A stretch of 21,522 nucleotides of DNA from a virus: the IMG/VR virus record IMGVR_UViG_3300021365_000139, positions 1-21,522 of that record; one strand, written 5' to 3'. Shown here piece after piece: positions 2,622 through 21,062 of this stretch. Each line of letters begins with the position of its first letter. Position 1 is the stretch's first letter. A program made the translations under genes and the position numbers. Below the pieces are notes generated by a model that was not told where the DNA came from, made no database searches, and saw nothing but the letters and a program-made list of their open reading frames with translations.

Positions 2622-5600
2622 TTAGCTTCCCCAACCCCTTGTAAGTTGGTTAATATCATCCTTAATAAAATAATTCCTCATGAACGGCAAAGCTCTAACG
2701 GCATCTTTTGCCCCTTCACCAAAGTTACCGTTAATCATTTCATTTACAGACTGCATCATATCAAGGCCCCATGACGGACCAGCACCAGCAAAGCCACCAA
2801 TTGCATCCATTGTGCTAGGCTCTTGAGGAAACTTAGGGCTAATAAAACCGTTAGTAATATTCGGCCCAGCAAGAGCTAGCGTTGTGTGCATAGATGTGTA
2901 GAACAAGTCAGAGTACAAAGCAGCCACCCCGCTTGTGTCAAATGATCGAGCAAACTTATCCCGCCAATCCATCTCGTCCCAAATGTAATCTGGCGTTCTG
3001 ATACTCAATGATAAATAAGCAAGACTAAGCATAGTAGTTATACCAATAGCCCTGTTTTTTACTTGGCCTGAAGCAATAGCACCAATTGTTTTGTTTACAT
3101 TTGCTAAAGTGTAGCTGTAAAACTGAAACGGCAAACCCATAAACCCACTAGCAACACGCGCATAGCCGGGATAGTTTGCGTCTTCAACCATACCAAATTT
3201 GCCAGCTACATTCATAGGAATGTAAGCAACTCCGTCTGTAATAATAGGCTTATCAGCAGGCGTACCATTCATAATTACGTTCATTATGTTGCTGTTTAAA
3301 GCAACTCTGTATTTAGTTACTAAGGCTTCATCCGCCCAGCCATCAGTGTTTGCAACATAGAGGCCACTGTCCATTGTCTGAACTGGCTGTTTTGCTATAG
3401 CCGCAGCATCTTCAGCGCCAATGCCATGTCTAGCAAGCCAAGTCTTTTCCATTTTAGTGAGAGCAGCGTAACGCTTAGAGTAGTCAATAATAGTATGACC
3501 ATCAATAATACCAGCAAGCTGTTTAGCAATTCCAGTTAAGGGAGCTAGACCGTTAAGAGTGTAAAAAGCATTTCGCGCGCCATTTAAAATGGCACTAGAG
3601 TCAATGTTATTTGACAGGTCTTCTGTTATTCTCATGTTAGCCAAGCCCTTGAGAATATCAATTGCCTCACCAGCTTTGCGAATTTCATTTTGCGGTAGAT
3701 AAAGATTGTTTTTGTTTACAATCTCTTGCATTCCTTTTGCAATAGATTCTAAATCGTACTCTAAAACAATGCGCCCAAAATCAGGAATAGCAGAAAGGCC
3801 AGCAGAACCCATATAGCTAAATGAAGCTGCTTCTCTAAGGAAGTTAGCCATGCCGCGCTCTAACTTTCCAACAACAGTAGATGGCTCTCTATGCAGTGTG
3901 CCAACAACTCGATCATACATATGGCGATAATCTTTCATCACCTTATTTATTTCTTTAGTGCTATACCCACTGGCAATCATTTCAAGGCGCATGTCAAACA
4001 TAACTGAATCAACATCCTTGCCAAACTCTTTTGCGTATTCATAACGCGGCTCAATCCTAGCAGCATATGTTCTAATTGCAGCCAAGGGATCAGTGTGCAT
4101 AAACTCAAGAACAAGGTTATTAGGTATGTCTAAATTTCTATGGCGAAAATGCTTAGAACGACCAGCTTGAGGTAACATTCCCACATCAAGGCCAGCAGCC
4201 TCCAAGCTAGTTGGGTCTTCGTCACCAAGTATTCTATCAATTGTTTTGTCTACGCGCGCCATAATATCAGCATCGTTATCTGAAAGAACTATTCGTGTAG
4301 ACTTGCCAAGCCCAGCATCGTACTCGTCAACGTATGGATGCTTTTTAAACCAATCAAACAAACGCTTACCGAACTCTTCACGGTTTTTCTTGATTGCTCG
4401 TTTATCCCAGAAACGTGGAAAGAAAAGCTCGTCAACAGATGAGTCTGGTTTTTTTCCACTAAGCTCTATTAAATCTCCGCCGCCCTCAACATTTCTGTTG
4501 TCTAGCGCTATGCGCCGACCACGGTTGACGTTAATCCTAGTTTCAATTTCCTTAACCCTTGCCTGCAAAACAGGAATTGTTTTCTTAGATCTATTATCTT
4601 TGCGCAACTTTTCTGTTCTTAGCTTTTCCTGCAATCCCATAAGCTCAGTTTCAAGCCTAGCAATACGGCTGTCCAAACCAGCCTTGTTACTAATTTGCCC
4701 CGTCTCCTCAAGGCGTTTCTGTGCTTTGCTAAAATATTCTGTAACTAAATTTGCTGCTTGGCTTTCTGCATCTGACATAGCGTCACCACGAATACGCTTC
4801 TCGTTAATGCGTGTTAGCCATTTAGAATAAGTGTTGTCAGAAAATGTAGCCTTACGATAAGTGTCTCCAAGGTTAATATCCAATTTGTCCAGAACAGCTA
4901 TCTGAGTATCTTTACCCCATATCTTTACAAGCTCATCGTGCAATGTGACCCAGCGCCCATTAGCAACTCCAATTCTTTGGAACACAGAGTTAGGCGTAGG
5001 AAGGTTTACTGAGTTAAGGGCAAGCGCCATACCGCTATCGTTGTAACTTCTAACAAAAATTTCTTTAATCATGTTTGGATATTTGCCCATTAAAGTGCGC
5101 TTTATTGGAGTAGAAATAGCTTTAAAGAATGGGCTTTTAGTAAAAGCATTTTCAACAATGCTCCACTTATTGTTTACGTCAAAACCTAAATCGTTAAGGT
5201 CTCGAATGCCTAGCTCGTTTTTGTGATACTGAGATTGCTCTAGTGCAGAGTTAAGAGAGTCCTCTGCTTTAGCGCGAGATGCGTCAGAAAGATTAGGGTC
5301 AGAAAGAACTTTACGTTGCGCTTCTGCTTTGTCGTCAAAGACTCTAGCCAACTGCAACAAATCTTCTGTGCTAACATTGCCTAAAGGCCTTTCAGCTCTT
5401 GGTACTGCAATAGCTTCTGGGGTTAGGTTTTCAATGCGTTCTAAGCGAGTAACTGTTTGAAAATAATCTTCGTGAGCAAGTTTTGTTTTATTGTAAACTT
5501 TTGCAGCACTCCCGCTAAGAGCGCCCCCTATAGCACCACCAAAAATACTTGCTGAAATTACGTTCATTGCTTGCTCTTCAAAACTTCTTAAAGGGTCCTT

Positions 5601-6083
5601 GTAACCAAGAACTAGCTCAGCACCCGTTTCAATAGTTGCAACGCCAGCAGCCGTTCTAGCAAACCCTACTGCCGTAGATCTTAGAGCGCTAGCACCAATA
5701 GCAGCAGGTCCAGCAAACGGAATAGCTATAGCGTTAATTGGATTTAACAAAGAAGAAACAAAGACATTACCGCCAGAAGCATCCGCAAGAGTCTGGCGAG
5801 CCTCCATGCCTACATCTAAGCCGCGCTTGAGAAAAGACATATGCTCAGGGCTTGTTGCATGGATTAAATGACTAGCAAACTCCTTGTAGCCTTCCATATC
5901 ACCCCAAGCATCGTAACCATCTTGAACCTGATTTCCGTAATAGATTTGACTATCGACTGCATATGCAGCTGCGCTAAAAGTTTTAGTTATTTCAGCGTTA
6001 ATAGTTTGCCCAAGGCTAGGACGAGGACTGTAATCAACTGTTCGTTGAGGATTTAAAGGGACAAACTGATTTGGGTCTGCCAT
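2622..6083 (-). CDS. Large internal virion / DNA ejection protein (gp16-position)
   Basis: 1153 aa, last of the three internal-virion-type genes before the fibre, the place of T7 gene 16. The start has AGGAGAA upstream and lies just after the previous stop. The N-terminal 200 residues contain Ala/Gly-rich hydrophobic stretches (about 103-150 and 172-192, GGAIGGALSG) that could be amphipathic or membrane-inserting. A coiled coil is likely at about 470-525. ELFFPRFWDKRAI near 552 and GFMGLPFQFYSYTLANVNKT in the C-terminal part recall large ejection proteins of other marine podoviruses. I see no lytic transglycosylase signature at the N-terminus, unlike T7 gp16. Expected role, by family and position: packed in the capsid, released at infection and lining the channel through the envelope. 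Exact homology needs a profile search. Confidence 0.85.
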   Translation of the reverse strand: MADPNQFVPLNPQRTVDYSPRPSLGQTINAEITKTFSAAAYAVDSQIYYGNQVQDGYDAWGDMEGYKEFASHLIHATSPEHMSFLKRGLDVGMEARQTLADASGGNVFVSSLLNPINAIAIPFAGPAAIGASALRSTAVGFARTAAGVATIETGAELVLGYKDPLRSFEEQAMNVISASIFGGAIGGALSGSAAKVYNKTKLAHEDYFQTVTRLERIENLTPEAIAVPRAERPLGNVSTEDLLQLARVFDDKAEAQRKVLSDPNLSDASRAKAEDSLNSALEQSQYHKNELGIRDLNDLGFDVNNKWSIVENAFTKSPFFKAISTPIKRTLMGKYPNMIKEIFVRSYNDSGMALALNSVNLPTPNSVFQRIGVANGRWVTLHDELVKIWGKDTQIAVLDKLDINLGDTYRKATFSDNTYSKWLTRINEKRIRGDAMSDAESQAANLVTEYFSKAQKRLEETGQISNKAGLDSRIARLETELMGLQEKLRTEKLRKDNRSKKTIPVLQARVKEIETRINVNRGRRIALDNRNVEGGGDLIELSGKKPDSSVDELFFPRFWDKRAIKKNREEFGKRLFDWFKKHPYVDEYDAGLGKSTRIVLSDNDADIMARVDKTIDRILGDEDPTSLEAAGLDVGMLPQAGRSKHFRHRNLDIPNNLVLEFMHTDPLAAIRTYAARIEPRYEYAKEFGKDVDSVMFDMRLEMIASGYSTKEINKVMKDYRHMYDRVVGTLHREPSTVVGKLERGMANFLREAASFSYMGSAGLSAIPDFGRIVLEYDLESIAKGMQEIVNKNNLYLPQNEIRKAGEAIDILKGLANMRITEDLSNNIDSSAILNGARNAFYTLNGLAPLTGIAKQLAGIIDGHTIIDYSKRYAALTKMEKTWLARHGIGAEDAAAIAKQPVQTMDSGLYVANTDGWADEALVTKYRVALNSNIMNVIMNGTPADKPIITDGVAYIPMNVAGKFGMVEDANYPGYARVASGFMGLPFQFYSYTLANVNKTIGAIASGQVKNRAIGITTMLSLAYLSLSIRTPDYIWDEMDWRDKFARSFDTSGVAALYSDLFYTSMHTTLALAGPNITNGFISPKFPQEPSTMDAIGGFAGAGPSWGLDMMQSVNEMINGNFGEGAKDAVRALPFMRNYFIKDDINQLTRGWGS

Positions 6084-9707: not shown

Positions 9708-10181
9708 CTATGTAACTTTAGTTTTTGTAACTTTAGTTTTTGAGTAGTCGCTTATAGAGCTGACTACAGATGTAAATGCACTAAAGTATGCAGCATTTTT
9801 TCTAGCCCTGCCTTCTTGGCGAATAACAGCAGATTGAGCTGTAATTTTTGAGGCTTCAGCAGCGCCCATAAAATCAGAAACCCTCAAGTCTTTTGCAACA
9901 ACTTTTTTTTGCCTTTGAAAAAAATCGTTAATACTTGGGCTGTCATAAACATCTCTACCACTAGCAGAGAAAGCAGCAATGTTAGCTGATACATTAGACC
10001 TGTACTCTTCAAGTCTATTGTTATGCCTTTGCATTGCTTCTGCTTTAGTTCTCACAGCATCAGTATCGTTGTTAAACGCTTGCAGCTCATCTGCTCTACG
10101 TTGTTCTTCAGCACTTTTTATTGCCTGACCTGCTTTTAAGAGGCCTATTCCTAAGTTTGCTATTGGAAGAAATGATGACAT
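9708..10181 (-). CDS. Small internal virion protein (gp14-like)
   Basis: 157 aa. A hydrophobic N-terminus (FLPIANLGIGLLKAGQAI) is followed by long charged helices containing RADELQAFNNDTDAV and ending in an Ala/Arg-rich segment. That is the pattern of T7 gp14-type internal virion proteins, which are ejected first and are thought to form a pore in the outer membrane. The segment ANIAAFSASGRDVYDSPSIN is typical of the group in my recollection. The ATG shares one base with the stop of the nozzle gene (TAATG). The last ten residues are a duplicated KTKVT, caused by a tandem 15-bp repeat. Confidence 0.8.
   Translation of the reverse strand: MSSFLPIANLGIGLLKAGQAIKSAEEQRRADELQAFNNDTDAVRTKAEAMQRHNNRLEEYRSNVSANIAAFSASGRDVYDSPSINDFFQRQKKVVAKDLRVSDFMGAAEASKITAQSAVIRQEGRARKNAAYFSAFTSVVSSISDYSKTKVTKTKVT
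9711..9742 (-). repeat. Tandem 15-bp repeat at the 3' end of the gp14-like gene
   Basis: The plus-strand unit TGTAACTTTAGTTTT is present twice without mismatch (9711-9725 and 9726-9740), plus two further bases. It encodes KTKVT twice at the C-terminus and keeps the reading frame. It looks like replication slippage and a site where copy number could vary between strains. Confidence 0.9.
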
Positions 10182-14277: not shown

Positions 14278-14877
14278 TCAGTGCGTTACGGGCCGTAGTG
14301 CCTTATTGTAAACAATCTTTTTGTCTGGATTGCAACGCACAAAATCAACATACTTGTTTGCATCTACTTGGTGTATCCCTACAGCCTCAAAGCCTAACCA
14401 CGCTGCCCAGTTAAGCATTCCCTCATAATCGGCTAAGATTGTCATGCTCATATAGGTTTCGCTCTGGTCAAAGAAGTTAACTAATAGCCTAGAGCCACGC
14501 GCCATAGCGTGAAAGTTTTGCTTCAAGCCATCTGAAAACATTGAAAACATTTGAGGTGACTCGCAGTCATCGTTGTACCACAGTCCACCCACCATAAGGA
14601 AAGTGTCGTCATTACGTCTGCAAAGATAGGAGTTAGAGGTCTCATACATTTCGTGCAGGGCTTGCCGAATGTCTGTGTGTCCCAGCAGAATAAGCTCTCT
14701 TTTATTTTCTGAGCTTAGGTTCTCGGCTACTTCGTCAACGTGGCCAAGAGTAAACGGGGTGAGATAGTAATCACCCCGCTTTAATATCTTAACCTCGGTA
14801 GACCTGTTTAAAACCAGCTTCGACTTCCCGTACAAAGTTTGGGTCTCGGTCTCTTGGACTGTAATATCTTGGATCAT
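14278..14877 (-). CDS. GNAT-fold phage protein (T7 gp13-like acetyltransferase-type)
   Basis: 199 aa. After a leader of about 30 residues, the body (VKILKRGDYYLTPFTLGHVD... ALHEMYETSNSYLC... LMVGGLWYND... YEGMLNWAAWLGFEAVGI) has the layout of small GNAT-like proteins carried in podovirus late operons and related in type to T7 gp13. In T7 this gene lies after the nozzle gene; here it is between scaffold and capsid. Catalytic activity cannot be judged by eye. The start at 14877 overlaps the scaffold gene by 89 nt, but it has an excellent Shine-Dalgarno (GGGAG, 7 nt) and no good alternative start follows the scaffold stop. The codons for FVRCN near the 3' end contain the repeated TTTGTGCGTTG element. 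Confidence 0.75.
   Translation of the reverse strand: MIQDITVQETETQTLYGKSKLVLNRSTEVKILKRGDYYLTPFTLGHVDEVAENLSSENKRELILLGHTDIRQALHEMYETSNSYLCRRNDDTFLMVGGLWYNDDCESPQMFSMFSDGLKQNFHAMARGSRLLVNFFDQSETYMSMTILADYEGMLNWAAWLGFEAVGIHQVDANKYVDFVRCNPDKKIVYNKALRPVTH
14333..14343 (-). promoter_or_regulatory. Repeated element TTTGTGCGTTG upstream of the capsid gene (site B)
   Basis: This is an exact copy of the 11-mer found at 2597-2607 and 17598-17608. Unlike those, it is inside a coding sequence, in the codons for FVRCN of the GNAT-like gene, 133 bp before the capsid ATG. With one more upstream T it shares TTTTGTGCGTTG with site C. Coding constraint could explain this copy by chance, but its place upstream of the most abundant virion protein fits a late promoter. 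Confidence 0.45.
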
Positions 14878-15526: not shown

Positions 15527-15783
15527 TTGTTTTTGCTCCTATGTGCATGTGAGATACGCTGTTCAATAAGCCCAACAATGTAACGCTGGCCTTCAACGTG
15601 TCTCAACTCCTCCGTTGTCACGTTAGGACCGTGAACCATTTCAATGGTTACGGACCGCAAGTAACTCAACACCTGTTTCCCTGTAGGTGTTGAGAATATC
15701 TCAGCAATATTCTTACTGATTTCAACGTCTTTCTCGGCGGACCTTTGAAATCCGTCCTTCCCGATATTAACCTTGTTGTTCAA
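15523..15783 (-). CDS. Bbp19-like small virion-region protein
   Basis: 86 aa. The middle part IAEIFSTPTGKQVLSYLRSV followed by HVEGQRYIVGLIEQRI resembles the Bbp19-like family, small proteins found between portal and scaffold in many podoviruses (conserved TPxGxxVL and EGxRxxV patterns). Function is not established in that family to my knowledge. The start is a TTG at 15783, inside the portal gene (17-nt overlap), with GGGAG 6 nt upstream. No ATG or GTG would give a protein containing the conserved part. The stop overlaps the scaffold start. A role in portal or procapsid assembly is inferred from position. Confidence 0.8.
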   Translation of the reverse strand: MNNKVNIGKDGFQRSAEKDVEISKNIAEIFSTPTGKQVLSYLRSVTIEMVHGPNVTTEELRHVEGQRYIVGLIEQRISHAHRSKNK

Positions 15784-17296
15784 CAGGCGCTCCCATTTGT
15801 TGCTGTGCCATTTGTTGCGCCATTTCTGCTAACTGCTTACGTTGCTCTTCGTCTCGAATAAGACTCTCAGGTACACCAAATTTCTTAGCAAGATGTATTG
15901 CTGTTTGCTCTCCGTCAACAAGAAGCTGCAACATCTCAGGGCCAAATGCTCCACCGATCAACTCTAAGAACCTAGAAACTGTAGAAATATCTTGGTTTGC
16001 TTGCGCTTGAGCTAGTGGAGAGACTGATCGAATCTTTACTTCACGGCCATTTACTGTTGGGACTTCGATACGACCCTGCTTTTTAAGGATATATATTACC
16101 CGTTGAAGCAACGGTTGCACTAATTCTGCCTGCAATCGGCCAAAAGCTGAACCCATACGTCGAGACAAATCAGCCATACGCTCTGCGACTTCTGTTGCTG
16201 TAGCTGGTGTGCGGTCTGGATTGCCAAGCATATCGTTATATAGCGCACGTTTTATGTTTAAACGCATATCGCTGAGTACAAGCTGGGCTACATCAAAGCT
16301 GCCTGCTGCTTGGATTGGCTGCAAGCCAGCAGAACCCATAGCTTTAGGAATGATTGAACCCGGAACAAGTTGGATTGTATCAGGGTTAATGACGCCATCG
16401 TCATCAATTTGATAGACGCCACTGATAGCCATTTGAGCGTTCTCAAGAATCAACTCAATAGTTAGGTTGGTTGTCTTGATAGCAGACAGGGCGTTAATCA
16501 GTGGGCCGCGACCATAGATTTCACCAGCGCACTTAGACCAGCGGAAACATATGAACGGATTAGACCCCAAACCATTCATATCATTAGAATAAAGCATTGT
16601 TTCTGTGTTCATGCAGATTGCGTAATGATAGTATCCGTTTTGATTCTTTAGGCTATAGTCTCGACAAACCAACTCAAGCACAGTTGTCTCTGCGTTCTTA
16701 CCCATTTGCGCTGTAACTTTAGGGTCAAACGTAGAATTTGGGTACATTTGAGCAAGGTGATCGTACTTTACGTTCTTTCGCTCTCTGTAAACGTGGTCAA
16801 TTTTGTCATCTGGACCAGTGTCTAGAACAACATGCGGCAAGGGGATTGCGCTAAAGTTAACTGGATTAACAGCATCCCCTTCTTCAACACAAAGAATACC
16901 TGTGCCGACAGCCAAATCCATAAATGATTCATGAACCTCTTGGCTAAAGTTAGAGTTCTGAAGAACCTCAAAGACGTATTCTGTTACTTCATCAAGCTCA
17001 TTATCTATAGCCTCACGTTGATCCTTTGGAACTTCACTGCCAGCCATAAGGTCAGCCCAACGTGCAAAGTTTGGAACAATGCCGGATTGTAGTCGGCTAG
17101 CAAACTCTTGCACACCAACTACAGCAGTCTCGTCAAAGATTTTATCATCCCTGCGTTGCCCATGCTCTTCATAATAAAATGATTCGCGTTGAGGAAGCGC
17201 ATACTCGTAGCACTCCTCAAACAGAGGAACCCACTTCTCACGAAAGGCCTTAGCTTTCTGATAGCGTTCTATATGCTGCTTCGCTACATTGTCCAT
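15767..17296 (-). CDS. Portal protein (head-tail connector, podovirus type)
   Basis: 509 aa, the usual size of T7 gp8-type portals. Recognisable segments are VPLFEECYEYALPQRESFYY (about 23-42), VGVQEFASRLQSGIVPNFAR, and VYRERKNVKYDHLAQMYPNS. Later come IYGRGPLINALSAIKTTNLT and RTPATATEVAERMADLSRRM, the last a strong signature of this family. Twelve copies are expected to form the ring at one capsid vertex through which DNA enters, with TerL on the outside during packaging and the gp11-like adaptor afterwards. The C-terminus is Gln/Met-rich (EMAQQMAQQQMGA), as in the barrel ends of some portals. The start follows the previous stop almost directly. Confidence 0.95.
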   Translation of the reverse strand: MDNVAKQHIERYQKAKAFREKWVPLFEECYEYALPQRESFYYEEHGQRRDDKIFDETAVVGVQEFASRLQSGIVPNFARWADLMAGSEVPKDQREAIDNELDEVTEYVFEVLQNSNFSQEVHESFMDLAVGTGILCVEEGDAVNPVNFSAIPLPHVVLDTGPDDKIDHVYRERKNVKYDHLAQMYPNSTFDPKVTAQMGKNAETTVLELVCRDYSLKNQNGYYHYAICMNTETMLYSNDMNGLGSNPFICFRWSKCAGEIYGRGPLINALSAIKTTNLTIELILENAQMAISGVYQIDDDGVINPDTIQLVPGSIIPKAMGSAGLQPIQAAGSFDVAQLVLSDMRLNIKRALYNDMLGNPDRTPATATEVAERMADLSRRMGSAFGRLQAELVQPLLQRVIYILKKQGRIEVPTVNGREVKIRSVSPLAQAQANQDISTVSRFLELIGGAFGPEMLQLLVDGEQTAIHLAKKFGVPESLIRDEEQRKQLAEMAQQMAQQQMGAPVEQQG

Positions 17297-17298
17297 TT

Positions 17299-17547
17299 TT
17301 AACCAAACCTACTTAAAAAGCCAGACCCGCCACCTGATCTAAACAGTGACCTACGCCCAGCTCCCTTGCCTGCGCCTCTGCGACCAGACTGTTGAGTTCT
17401 AGATTCTAAAGCTTCACTAATATCTTCGCGTTTAGACTCTGCGCGATCTGATATTTCTTCCGCTTTTGCTGCATCTGCTGCTGCACGATCTTCTGCTGCT
17501 TGTTTTTCTGCTGCGGGATCAGGTCCGCCACCACCACCAAAACACAT
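17299..17547 (-). CDS. MCFGGG small protein upstream of the portal
   Basis: 82 aa. It starts with MCFGGGGGPDPAAEK, continues as a highly charged Ala/Glu/Arg helix (about 13-50), then a Gly/Arg tail containing RRSLFR (65-70) and ending GFLSRFG. Two other proteins in the window share the MC[FM]GG start and a basic-Ser/Thr-Phe motif near residues 64-70 (19635-19865, 19879-20118). It has a strong Shine-Dalgarno (GGAG) and is the first gene after a 61-bp gap carrying the TTTGTGCGTTG element. It is not a lipoprotein, since no signal peptide precedes the Cys. Function unknown; location before the portal suggests a head or packaging accessory. Confidence 0.85.
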   Translation of the reverse strand: MCFGGGGGPDPAAEKQAAEDRAAADAAKAEEISDRAESKREDISEALESRTQQSGRRGAGKGAGRRSLFRSGGGSGFLSRFG

Positions 17548-17597
17548 AGTAAATCTCCTTTGCTTTACCCTTCGTAAGCACGAAACTTACAAAAACT

Positions 17598-17608
17598 CAA
17601 CGCACAAA
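17598..17608 (-). promoter_or_regulatory. Repeated element TTTGTGCGTTG before the portal operon (site A)
   Basis: This 11-mer begins immediately after the TerL stop codon and ends 50 bp before the ATG of the MCFGGG gene, inside the only gap (17548-17608) between packaging and head genes. It is identical to the copies at 14333-14343 and 2597-2607. A small alternative hairpin (GTAAG with CTTAC) follows it, but has no U-tail. I interpret the element as a candidate promoter or operator for the head genes. Confidence 0.55.
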
Positions 17609-19132
17609 CTACATTCGCGCCCATAATCCCTGCCGTTTTCGTCTGGCTGGGCCTTTATTAAAGACATCAAAGTCACGTTTAGCCACTGTAGGAGTGGCTG
17701 GCTTCTGACTATTCATAAGGGCGCGGCCCTCGCCTGCACCCAGAAACAAGTATTGTGCTGCATCGTGGACGTGGGAAAACATATTCTTGTCAGGTTTATC
17801 TGCAAACCGTTCACCAGAAACCTCCATCCGCTTGTAGGCATATCCACCCTCAAAGCCTTTAATTAGCTGCTGACAGCGCCGATCTATTAACATCGCTGGC
17901 TTCCCTTCTACCATCTTGGTCAGCTGGGAGGAGACAGCCTCAAGTCGAAGGTCAACAGAGTTGGAAGGCGCTGGGAACGCCCTCAAGCCAGCTCCGCGCA
18001 TGATGTGAAAGGGAGTTGACTCATCAGTTTGCGCGCGGAAATCACCCGATGGATCGCCAAATATAATGACTTCACCAGCGGCAGCGAACCTAGTCGCCAA
18101 TTCTTGTCGTAAAACCTCAGAGAATCTAACGATTCCCATGTCGATAGCTACGATCTCAGACTGAACAAACCATCTTCCGCGCACCTTCTGTCCTATAACA
18201 GCGGCAGGAGTTAGCCCAAAGTCCACGCCTACATACAGAGGCACGTTGGCTGCTATAGGTATTTCTTCCTTAGCGACATGAACTTCTGCTGCAAACATTG
18301 GATACACAGGCTTTCCTTCTTGGATATGGCCCAGTCTATTCATAACATACACATCAATCCAAGACTTAGTTTTACCCTGCACCAAATTAGGGTAATAGCT
18401 CTTCATCATGTTCTTCTGGTTCTCAGCGTCTTTGCTGGGAACGTAATCTTCTATCTCGCCTTCTTCCGATTTCTTTTCGACCATGCCAGGGGGCTGCGTA
18501 AAGAAATTCCAGTTATCTGGTTTGACCAGCATCTTAGCCTGCTCACGCGGTATATGATCTGGGATTGGTACTTCTCCAGACATAATCGGCCACCAGTGAT
18601 CTTCTTCAGGAGCGTTGGTATCGGCAATGACGCCAGTCCAAGAAGGACCGCCATCACGCATAGAAGGATAACGACCCACACGCATAGTACAGGCATCAAT
18701 AATACTCTTAGGTATTTCACGCGCCTCGTTAATCCAGATACCAGTAAGCTCCAGAGATAGGAGTTTCTTGACATCTTCGGGGCGATCCAATGCAAGGAAG
18801 ATAACCTCAAGTTCAATGTCACCTTTTTTTATGTTGTGCGTGTATGGGACTGACCAAGTAAACTTTCCCCAATCAGCTTCAGGAAACCAGTCTAACCAAG
18901 TCTTGATTGTCGTTGTTCTAAGCTGTGGGTTGGTGTTCCGTATAATCGCCCAGCGGCTTTTCCGAGTGCCATCAGGCGCTTTCTTCTGTTCCAGAGCGCG
19001 GCGGAATACTTCGACACAGCAAGCAACAGATTTTCCAGAACCTACGGGACCGCGTATGCCACGAAAGAAAGTGTTGTCTTTCATAAAGCCCTTGAGGACA
19101 TCACCATCTGGCTTGTATTTGAAGTCAACCAT
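17609..19132 (-). CDS. terL: Terminase large subunit
   Basis: 507 aa. The ATPase domain has Walker A GPVGSGKS at 28-35 and a Walker B-like strand ending IWINEARE at 132-139, with the catalytic Glu expected at 136. The nuclease domain shows its acidic residues in VGVDFGLTP (D304), VIIFGDPSGD (D360) and HVHDAAQYL (D457). Together these make an apparently intact packaging motor that pumps DNA through the portal and cuts concatemers. Length is normal for the family. The ATG overlaps the 3' end of the upstream 47-aa gene by 8 nt. The gene lies directly upstream of the head genes, whereas T7 puts its terminase genes at the far end of the late region. Confidence 0.97.
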   Translation of the reverse strand: MVDFKYKPDGDVLKGFMKDNTFFRGIRGPVGSGKSVACCVEVFRRALEQKKAPDGTRKSRWAIIRNTNPQLRTTTIKTWLDWFPEADWGKFTWSVPYTHNIKKGDIELEVIFLALDRPEDVKKLLSLELTGIWINEAREIPKSIIDACTMRVGRYPSMRDGGPSWTGVIADTNAPEEDHWWPIMSGEVPIPDHIPREQAKMLVKPDNWNFFTQPPGMVEKKSEEGEIEDYVPSKDAENQKNMMKSYYPNLVQGKTKSWIDVYVMNRLGHIQEGKPVYPMFAAEVHVAKEEIPIAANVPLYVGVDFGLTPAAVIGQKVRGRWFVQSEIVAIDMGIVRFSEVLRQELATRFAAAGEVIIFGDPSGDFRAQTDESTPFHIMRGAGLRAFPAPSNSVDLRLEAVSSQLTKMVEGKPAMLIDRRCQQLIKGFEGGYAYKRMEVSGERFADKPDKNMFSHVHDAAQYLFLGAGEGRALMNSQKPATPTVAKRDFDVFNKGPARRKRQGLWARM

Positions 19133-19268
19133 TCTTCTTCAATAGGCTTTTCTTCTTTGGGAAGCCAGCCTTCATATTCTTGTAGGCTTTGTCGCTAATT
19201 GTAGAGTTCTTCTTAGAGCGACTAATCCCTTTTTTCTTACGCGCGTTCATGTTTTCATACAGGCTCAT
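19125..19268 (-). CDS. 47-aa Lys-rich conserved protein upstream of terL
   Basis: The product starts MSLYENMNARKKKGISRSKK and continues STISDKAYKNMKAGFPKK. I recognise this as a small conserved phage family (MSLYxNxNARKKAGxSRSKK followed by an AYxNMKxGF motif) found next to terminase genes. No function is known to me. It is strongly basic (many Lys and Arg), so nucleic-acid contact is possible. The ATG overlaps the TAA of the previous gene by one base (TAATG), and the 3' end overlaps terL by 8 nt. The tight coupling on both sides and family resemblance make it a real gene despite its length. Confidence 0.85.
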   Translation of the reverse strand: MSLYENMNARKKKGISRSKKNSTISDKAYKNMKAGFPKKKSLLKKNG

Positions 19269-19468
19269 TATCGCAGTCCTTTATCCACGCCGAACTTAAT
19301 CATACGCTGCACGACCTCTGGGCCTATGCTTTCAATTAGCTTGTCGCACTCTTGATCTGTGACAAAGGACTTGCCGTGCTTGGCTTCAACGTAAGCAAAC
19401 TCAGTCTTACGAACAATACCACGGAGCATTTGCAGCTCCATGGGTTTTAAAGTGCTGATAAAGCTCAC
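19268..19468 (-). CDS. 66-aa helical protein of unknown function in the terminase module
   Basis: Starts with GTG in a GTGA overlap with the previous stop. The sequence (LKPMELQMLRGIVRKTEFAY, then VTDQECDKLIESIGPEVVQR) predicts a small three-helix protein. I do not recognise a named family with certainty; similar small helical proteins precede terL in marine podoviruses. It shows normal amino-acid composition, no membrane segment and one Cys. Its place between two Lys-rich tiny proteins and terL suggests a packaging-related or assembly role, by context only. Confidence 0.8.
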   Translation of the reverse strand: MSFISTLKPMELQMLRGIVRKTEFAYVEAKHGKSFVTDQECDKLIESIGPEVVQRMIKFGVDKGLR

Positions 19469-19635
19469 TTCTTTTTAACCTTTGGCTTCTTCTTAGCTGG
19501 TTTTACTTCTGCATCTGCAATGAAAAGCAGACGTTTAGTACCCGGCTTGCGCGTTGCGCCTGTATATGTGGTTCCAGCAAGGGTGTGAGTCGGCCCATCG
19601 TAGACCTCTCCCGTGTTAGCAATCTTCCATCCCAT
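19465..19635 (-). CDS. 56-aa protein with Lys-rich tail
   Basis: Start ATG shares one base with the upstream stop (TAATG), and the stop TGA forms a GTGA overlap with the next start, so both ends are coupled. The sequence begins MGWKIANTGEVYDGPTHTLA, has a beta-like GTTYTGATRKPGTKRLLFI, and ends in alternating Lys runs (PAKKKPKVKKK). The N-terminal half could be a small beta domain and the tail may bind DNA or an acidic partner. I do not recognise a family. It fills an otherwise unexplained space between two supported genes. Confidence 0.8.
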   Translation of the reverse strand: MGWKIANTGEVYDGPTHTLAGTTYTGATRKPGTKRLLFIADAEVKPAKKKPKVKKK

Positions 19636-19865
19636 TATTTGTTTACTCCATATTGAGTGAAAAAGGTGCGTCTCTGTGCGCCAGAACGCTGAGCAGGTTT
19701 ACTTGCATCCTTGAGAACTGGATCGCGCTCTACCTTATCGCCCATCTTTAGGGAGGGTAGCTCGTAGCTCTTCTTCATTCCAGCGACATAGCTTCCGTCA
19801 GCTGCTCGGTATCCCTCGTAATAGTCTTTAGCTGTTACAGGGTTATTGCTTCCGCCCATACACAT
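19635..19865 (-). CDS. MCMGGS small protein, terminase module
   Basis: 76 aa. It begins MCMGGSNNPVTAKDYYEGYR and ends AQRRTFFTQYGVNK. The MC[FM]GG start and the basic, Thr, Phe, Phe motif at 64-70 match the proteins at 17299-17547 and 19879-20118. The middle region, with DYYEGYRAADGSYVAGM, is tyrosine-rich and shows no enzyme motif. It lies 13 nt after the similar gene 19879-20118, so the pair may be a diverged tandem duplication. No membrane segment. Function unknown. Confidence 0.85.
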   Translation of the reverse strand: MCMGGSNNPVTAKDYYEGYRAADGSYVAGMKKSYELPSLKMGDKVERDPVLKDASKPAQRSGAQRRTFFTQYGVNK

Positions 19866-19878
19866 AAAAATTAACCCT

Positions 19879-20118
19879 TCAAGCTTTCGGAAATATACTA
19901 TCTATGGATCGAGTTAAAAAGCTTGCGCGAGGCGCCGCGCCTCCACGCATTCTTGGTCGATCACTTTGACTTGGCTGTCTTCTTGCTGCTGCGTCAGATC
20001 TTATTTTGTCGTGGTAAGCCTTCGAACCAAAAGCATTACCTTCGCTATCTTTAGTTGATTCAGAACTAGAACCGCTGCTGTATTTCTGTGGCCCTACTGG
20101 ACCTCCACCAAAACACAT
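19879..20118 (-). CDS. MCFGGG small protein, terminase module
   Basis: 79 aa. The start is MCFGGGPVGPQKYSS, followed by a Ser/Glu-rich low-complexity segment, then a basic stretch with RPRMRGGAAPRASFLTR (54-70) and a short end. The ATG overlaps the upstream stop (TAATG) and GAGGGG lies just upstream as ribosome-binding site. PRASFLTR recalls PRRASFLAR in the protein at 20359-20646. The middle looks disordered. A peptide-like adaptor binding a common partner through both ends is a possible role, but this is inference. Confidence 0.85.
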   Translation of the reverse strand: MCFGGGPVGPQKYSSGSSSESTKDSEGNAFGSKAYHDKIRSDAAARRQPSQSDRPRMRGGAAPRASFLTRSIDSIFPKA

Positions 20119-20366
20119 TACTTGTTCCCCTCTTTAATCATGTCAGCTTCCATTTTCTCAACGCGCTTCAGCAATGAATAGTGCTTGGCGGAGTAAACGT
20201 CATTCTTCTCAGGGATGCGCTTTAAGTTAAACGCCTTGATAATAGCGCGCTTAATAACCTTGAGAGGCTTATTGTTGTGAGCTTTGTCCATGTCATCGAG
20301 CTGCTTACTCAACCGCTCGTACACAGCTTGCTTGGTAATCGGTTTCTTCTGTGTGTTGTTACCCAC
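20118..20366 (-). CDS. 82-aa basic helical protein of unknown function
   Basis: GTG start at 20366, overlapping the preceding gene by 8 nt. A Lys-rich helical sequence: QAVYERLSKQLDDMDKA, then PLKVIKRAIIKAFNLKRI, then SLLKRVEKMEADMIKEG. No family recognised. Charge distribution suggests an RNA/DNA-binding or coiled oligomeric protein. Both ends overlap neighbours, which supports it as a real member of the operon. Confidence 0.78.
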   Translation of the reverse strand: MGNNTQKKPITKQAVYERLSKQLDDMDKAHNNKPLKVIKRAIIKAFNLKRIPEKNDVYSAKHYSLLKRVEKMEADMIKEGNK

Positions 20367-20646
20367 TGGCCTTATTCCTTTTAGTAATTGCTGCTGCCTT
20401 TTTCCGTGCGTCAGCTTTGGAAGACGCGCCCCATGCTTTTAAGCTAAGAAGAAGACGGGTGGGTTCACCCTTGGCGTTCCGCTCAGGGCCGCTATTGCCA
20501 GCCATCCTTGCAAGAAAAGAAGCGCGACGAGGATTGTCTCCGCTCTTTACAGGAGCCTTGAGATTGGAACCTTCCGTGCGCTTGAAGTGCGCGCGACCCG
20601 CTGCGTTCAAGCCACCGCTAGGATTCTGATGCTTCTTCGCTACCAT
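20359..20646 (-). CDS. DUF6321-like conserved phage protein
   Basis: 95 aa. The sequence HQNPSGGLNAAGRAHFKRTE, then NLKAPVKSGDNPRRASFLAR, then RLLLSLKAWGASSKADARKK is a well-conserved phage family that I recall as DUF6321, common in marine phages near terminase genes; the number should be checked. Function unknown. It is basic and rich in Gly, Ala, Ser and Arg. Its internal PRRASFLAR (39-47) is similar to C-terminal motifs in the MC[FM]GG proteins. The ATG lies within the end of the 38-aa gene at 20618-20734, and the stop overlaps the next start. Confidence 0.88.
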   Translation of the reverse strand: MVAKKHQNPSGGLNAAGRAHFKRTEGSNLKAPVKSGDNPRRASFLARMAGNSGPERNAKGEPTRLLLSLKAWGASSKADARKKAAAITKRNKASG

Positions 20647-20734
20647 AACCTGTACTCTGTAATGCAGCCTTGACCTTCGTCATGTCCTGTCGAGGAGAAG
20701 GTGTCGGCTCTGGTTTCTTTTTAAATCTACTCAT
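20618..20734 (-). CDS. 38-aa small protein overlapping both neighbours
   Basis: Reads MSRFKKKPEPTPSPRQDMTK and ends QSTGYGSEEASES. The ATG is within the last codons of the 111-aa gene (8-nt overlap) and the end overlaps the DUF6321-like gene by 29 nt. Without it, an 80-bp hole would remain in an otherwise gapless operon. The MSRFKKxPxPxxP type start is familiar from phage small proteins. No strong Shine-Dalgarno is seen, so translation would depend on coupling. Moderate confidence. Confidence 0.6.
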   Translation of the reverse strand: MSRFKKKPEPTPSPRQDMTKVKAALQSTGYGSEEASES

Positions 20735-21062
20735 TGAGTGGACCACTCGAATCTTTTATTTGTTGCAACAAGCTACGGGAACGACCTCGGCTTGCTAGGT
20801 TCATGCCGCCGCCTCCAGCACCGCCGCGAGACCTAGCATAGGCTCTTTTGGCAATCTGACGATTGAGGGCTTTGATCTGAGCTTCCTTTTTTTTCACACG
20901 CTCTTTGGAGCGTTTAATTTCCGCATCACTTGTTCTCTGCTGAACAGGATGATCTTCTGGGTTTAATTCCTGAAGAAGCTCTTCTTGGTCAATCTGATTC
21001 TCTAGAGACTTTATCCTCCCCCTTAGCTTTGCTAAAGAAGCGCCACCTTTGATTTTAGCCAT
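20727..21062 (-). CDS. 111-aa coiled-coil protein with Gly/Arg/Ser tail
   Basis: Starts MAKIKGGASLAKLRGRIKSL. Two charged helical segments (about 8-35 and 45-75) suggest a coiled coil. A Gly-rich linker (SRGGAGGGGMNLASRGRSRS) follows, and then SLLQQIKDSSGPLNE. The GRSRSLL end is loosely similar to the basic-Ser-Phe motif of the nearby MC[FM]GG proteins. The gene is first after the 231-bp gap and has GGAG upstream of the ATG. A degenerate copy of the TTTGTGCGTTG element ends 53 bp before it. No family recognised. Confidence 0.8.
   Translation of the reverse strand: MAKIKGGASLAKLRGRIKSLENQIDQEELLQELNPEDHPVQQRTSDAEIKRSKERVKKKEAQIKALNRQIAKRAYARSRGGAGGGGMNLASRGRSRSLLQQIKDSSGPLNE

Follow-up and report, generated by a model that had tools for sequence, protein, structure and literature searches.

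The window analysed here is the whole of a 21.5-kb virus record (21,522 nucleotides). It comes from an uncultured marine phage with a short tail and covers its structural half. All genes lie on the minus strand, running from tiny ORFs through terL, family A, portal, scaffold, capsid, tail tube/nozzle and internal virion proteins to the fibre. By terL, the closest cultured relative is Pelagibacter phage EXVC031P (65%). The features discussed below are:

2622..6083, minus strand: internal virion protein with an endolysin domain, phrog_342 (E 2e-21)
9708..10181, minus strand: internal virion protein, phrog_418, 157 aa (E 2e-10), directly after the tail-protein gene
15767..17296, minus strand: portal (Head-tail_con, PF12236) with a Q-rich C-terminus; proposed partner of the family A N-terminus
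17299..17547, minus strand: family A, 82 aa, MCFGGG...GRRSLFRSGGGSGFLSRFG, with RRSLFR; fills the terL-portal interval and is present in 81/81 related loci
17302..17355, minus strand: final 18 family A codons (RRSLFRSGGGSGFLSRFG), for the C-terminus proposed to dock at the nozzle/DNA end; compare T7 gp7.3 residues 84-98
17509..17547, minus strand: family A codons 1-13 (M-C-F-G); proposed portal-docking N-terminus, compare T7 gp6.7 residues 2-15
17609..19132, minus strand: terminase large subunit (terL), with families A and B on either side
19635..19865, minus strand: family B, 76 aa, MCMGGS...LPSL...QRRTFFTQYG; upstream of terL
19879..20118, minus strand: family C, 79 aa, MCFGGG...APRASFLTRSIDSIF, with PRASFLTR; an extra copy
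20359..20646, minus strand: DUF6321 protein (PF19846), whose PRRASFLAR lies within the conserved domain; not a member of the set
20727..21062, minus strand: 111-aa protein (family E), whose start is not Met-Cys; only the C-terminal motif is in common

The head, tail and core genes are of the T7 type. The phrog_342 protein carries an endolysin domain, and thus a T7-type ejection core is encoded in the window. The phrog_418 protein probably corresponds to T7 gp14, judging by position, as T7 gene 14 likewise follows the tail-protein gene. Between scaffold and capsid, a 199-aa gene (14278-14877) weakly matches phrog_308 (internal virion protein). A tiny 47-aa protein, MSLYENMNARKKKGISRSKKNSTISDKAYKNMKAGFPKKKSLL (window 19125-19268), is very widely kept, with close copies in EXVC032P (L094 4331-4477), MEP301 (L003 7625-7762) and HTVC011P-like loci.

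The initial annotation described three tiny Met-Cys proteins with a common C-terminal motif, and this pattern is real and stronger than first noted. We gathered 80 loci whose terL is 84-100% identical to that of the window, making 81 with the window itself. The terL-portal ORF begins with Met-Cys in every one, and the loci encode 73 distinct proteins of 67-164 aa. If homologues lost either end motif freely, the resemblance was to be read as compositional; the opposite was seen, with middles that vary freely, often beyond alignment, and both ends kept. Starts other than MCFG (MCGG, MCGR, MCMK, MCRR, MCQP, MCWQ, MCFP, MCFK) all retain the Cys, which is therefore the element kept at this end. Nearly as constant is a GRRSL[LFIMY]...GG.GF[LI]xRF-type tail, found in nearly all relatives. 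Across the 47 rows of the family A alignment M1 and C2 are invariant, and R65, R66, S67, L68, G76, R80 and F81 are conserved in at least 90%. AlphaFold2 predicts a helix at residues 11-56 with both ends unstructured, as would be expected of a tether. Pfam gave no match to any of the three window Met-Cys proteins (E<=1), and profile searches of the PDB with family A and with the EXVC031P-type and HTVC011P-type proteins described below returned no relevant match.

Family B (LPSL...RRSLL) was found in 31 of the 33 loci that extend 2.5 kb or more beyond terL on its upstream side. Every member starts with Met-Cys, and both Cys2 and LPSL are invariant. Families A and B are clearly built on one two-end design, and their profiles match at the motif. 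Family C occurs in only nine loci, the near relatives of the window, and its link to the third protein of relatives is weak; its assignment to the same set is less sure. Shine-Dalgarno-like sequences precede all three Met-Cys ORFs.

Short basic Gly-rich proteins could come to share such tags by chance or through start-codon context. The proteins are indeed short and of low complexity, KKSLL also occurs in other small ORFs of the region, and codon choice leans to TGT at Cys2 and TTT at Phe3. Conservation contradicts this explanation, and we regard it as very improbable. Cys occupies position 2 in 73/73 distinct family A and 40/40 family B relatives, against a background of 2/179 large ORFs with distinct N-termini from the same loci. 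Within the last 45 residues, [RK][ST][LMF][LFIMY] is found in 72/73 family A and 34/40 family B relatives (shuffle means 2.6 and 1.8), and the synteny is conserved. A further pattern, picked post hoc, [RKS][RKAS][ST][LF][LF], occurs in 6/11 small window proteins and never in more than two in 20,000 shuffles. Beyond these families, a Met-Cys start together with a ribosome-binding site turned up in only two ORFs of the 81 loci, and each seems to be a chance overlap. Cys2 is written as TGT and TGC, and in RRSL the Arg codons include CGN and AGR and the Ser codons TCN and AGY; since these synonymous codons vary, selection acts on the protein and not on the DNA. Other Cys residues are absent from 257 proteins. 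Control small basic families likewise have none, and we therefore dropped this absence as a distinguishing trait.

The DUF6321 protein had been counted with the Met-Cys proteins. We rejected it, as its motif falls within a conserved domain and it forms a separate family. No profile link to the other small proteins was found; DUF6321 was not detected in families A, B or C, and within the set of window proteins only 20359-20646 carries it. The 111-aa protein had been included as well, and here the C-terminal motif holds up while the protein itself belongs to a separate, non-Met-Cys family. Relatives of family E have a variable front and often end in GGGG-M-x-MPQEY-x-RSLL (GGGGSMxMPQEYxxRSLL), with RRSLL, KRSLL or KRSLY types. 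The 111-aa protein may have this C-terminal tag in common with the Met-Cys families and yet be unrelated to them.

The two conserved ends recall two small proteins of T7. T7 gp6.7 (phrog_1391), MCFSPKIKTPK...SGRKGLKV, is small, starts Met-Cys-Phe, has its sole Cys at position 2, is encoded upstream of the portal and carries a basic [R/K]-S/G-L-K-V segment. The window proteins share with it the Met-Cys N-terminus, the small size and the position upstream of the portal. They differ in what follows: gp6.7 continues with SPKxKxPK and PAPLTE, whereas the window proteins have a Gly-rich start and family A a helical middle. The gp6.7 profile is too short to discriminate; it did not match the window proteins or beat shuffled or reversed sequences. 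The window proteins fall below the threshold of PF17570 (T7-like_gp67), for which HTVC011P-type members reach only E 0.63.

The link to T7 gp7.3 extends to profiles, at weak scores. T7 gp7.3 ends in GGKKSLSVARSSGGGINI, and its C-terminal GKKSLSVARSSGGGINI resembles GRRSLFRSGGGSGF. Family A carries the C-terminal [GK][KR][KR]-Ser-Leu...Ser-Gly-Gly-Gly peptide of gp7.3, both proteins are encoded upstream of the portal, and gp7.3 is the best profile match of family A. With the gp7.3 HMM, 19 family A members fell in the top 20 of ~2,090 scored ORFs (best E 0.002), and the best real score was 16.2 bits vs. 10.7 for the best shuffled copy (1,460 shuffles). Conversely, the family A HMM placed gp7.3 orthologues at ranks 1-4 of 1,998 T7-clade ORFs. 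When family A was scanned against PHROG, phrog_1320 (gp7.3) led by member count, its E of 0.0065 being the best among 47 members and a weak score from short sequences. The best E overall was to phrog_10099, which T7 gp7.3 itself matches. The hhalign value for family A against gp7.3 (27%) is weak and rests on short basic/Gly-rich stretches, and the C-terminal 26 residues of gp7.3, too short to discriminate, did not pick out family A on their own (AUC 0.44). The window proteins do not reach the threshold of PF11653 (VirionAssem_T7). We assign the window proteins to neither PF17570 nor PF11653, because the profile scores are weak and the sequences short. The N-terminal halves differ: gp7.3 starts Met-Gly-Lys with no Cys at position 2, whereas in family A a charged helix comes after the Met-Cys start and the Lys-rich part is missing.

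Both T7 proteins are virion proteins (PMC11784390). In the 2024 cryo-EM structure, gp6.7 residues 2-15 were modelled as twelve loops that encircle the portal barrel, and gp7.3 residues 84-98 as six loops on pairs of nozzle (gp12) subunits (PMC11784390). By analogy, these peptides are the counterparts of the two conserved window end peptides; in T7 they are on separate proteins, and in families A and B on one chain. The suggestion that the ends are docking sites is thus well supported, as both are kept and their putative T7 counterparts are docked (PMC11784390). The idea of one partner is not supported: the T7 comparison points to the portal barrel as the likely site for the N-terminus and the tail nozzle/DNA end for the C-terminus.

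The same layout is found in other podophages. A Met-Cys ORF lies near the portal in 76/80 EXVC031P-like, 76/80 HTVC011P-like and 71/74 T7-like loci. These proteins were selected by their start, so the invariance of Met-Cys within the three sets is not independent, and the independent evidence is the locus counts. The EXVC031P-type protein (MCAGPFKPK...GRRSLLTGRRGGQGF), which is related to family A (hhalign 97%), and the HTVC011P-type protein (MCMSPRKP...GRGSLRIPLSGGSGLNFP) are both encoded upstream of the portal. Like the window families, they combine a Met-Cys start, a G[RK]x-Ser-Leu tail and an adjacent portal; they differ in a Pro-rich second segment and, in the EXVC031P type, an extra TLGA end. 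Proteins of the phrog_831 type (HTVC010P gp03/gp04 and similar) also lie upstream of the portal and have a GRxSTILTG tail that weakly matches the HTVC011P type, but they have a Met-Gly start, no Cys and a TLLG end. In HTVC011P (L090 2690-2941) and some relatives a second tandem Met-Cys protein, MCGNPRV...SSGSGLQIPS, directly precedes the portal. In the Vibrio phage ICP3, orf34 (L409 131-382; MCIFKAPS...GKSSLKVKL) looks like gp6.7 and orf36 (L409 825-1115; ...GGKQSLSVSRSSGSGINI) looks like gp7.3. A 2026 preprint described the ICP3 orthologues of gp6.7 and gp7.3 as not readily identifiable.

These neighbourhoods bear on the packaging-accessory role first proposed, taken here to mean binding to terminase, portal or both while DNA is packaged, with no place in the mature virion. 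In the window group terL is flanked by Met-Cys proteins, as originally noted, and family A sits between terL and the portal. The linkage, however, is to the portal: in T7-like and HTVC011P-like genomes the Met-Cys protein is beside it and terL is outside the neighbourhood, and the T7 counterparts are virion proteins. A packaging-accessory role is not supported; we consider it quite unlikely and a role in virion assembly and ejection the likely one; the initial interpretation as a whole is partly supported.

Alternatively, the basic Gly/Arg tails might chiefly clamp the end of the DNA inside the tail channel and prevent leakage, with the Met-Cys end a mere anchor. T7 gp7.3 K84 and K85 touch the DNA end (PMC11784390); they align with the RR of RRSL, and the C-termini are strongly basic. 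The tail is nevertheless kept beyond charge, in Ser-Leu and Gly-x-Gly-Phe-x-x-Arg-Phe, and we think a mainly DNA-clamping role unlikely, if overlapping with the tether reading that we prefer.

We consider it probable that the Met-Cys proteins are minor virion/ejection proteins whose mode of action resembles that of T7 gp6.7 and gp7.3, tethering portal, core and tail nozzle. The initiator Met would be removed, leaving a free N-terminal Cys, and the short N-terminal peptide would bind the helical barrel of the dodecameric portal. The helical or flexible middle would serve as a spacer, and the C-terminal basic-Arg-Ser-Leu/Gly-rich peptide would dock at the tail adaptor-nozzle junction and contact the DNA end, or bridge to the internal core. 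The proteins would thereby stabilise the core-portal-tail assembly and exit with the core proteins on ejection. We infer their presence in the virion, their partners, Met removal and ejection; a gp6.7 loop on the portal barrel in the virion and ejection at infection are known only for T7 (PMC11784390).

A free N-terminal Cys was part of the first proposal and fits the T7 gp6.7 loop, which is modelled from residue 2; in the window proteins Met removal is presumed. Gly, Ala and Ser at position 2 likewise permit Met removal under the methionine-aminopeptidase rule. In the counterparts beside the portal in HTVC010P, MEP301, BcepC6B and BPP-1, position 2 is Gly, Ala or Ser and not Cys, which shows that Cys2 is not universally needed. 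The text of the T7 structure paper makes no mention of the gp6.7 Cys (PMC11784390). As to a possible pairing of Cys2 with a portal Cys, portal Cys29 is common to the window, EXVC031P, T7 and ICP3, and is also present in YeP5 and S-CBP1, with no Met-Cys gene among their annotated ORFs examined. Portals of the window group keep five Cys positions at 97% or more (29, 211, 228, 250, 256), and HTVC010P-like portals have no conserved Cys.

More tentatively, these proteins may form a widespread podophage class in which one chain is anchored to the portal barrel through Cys-2 and to the nozzle/DNA end through Arg-Ser-Leu, and in which a genome encodes several such tethers between portal and tail. The N-terminal Cys, invariant and the only one, would then do specific chemistry (cross-link, modification or buried contact) that has yet to be described for T7. 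The two-end signature picks up such proteins in ICP3 and in loci of uncultured marine phages by the hundred. It also singles out one residue, Cys2, and one four-residue motif, RRSL, where mutation would bear on what keeps portal, core and tail joined in short-tailed phages.
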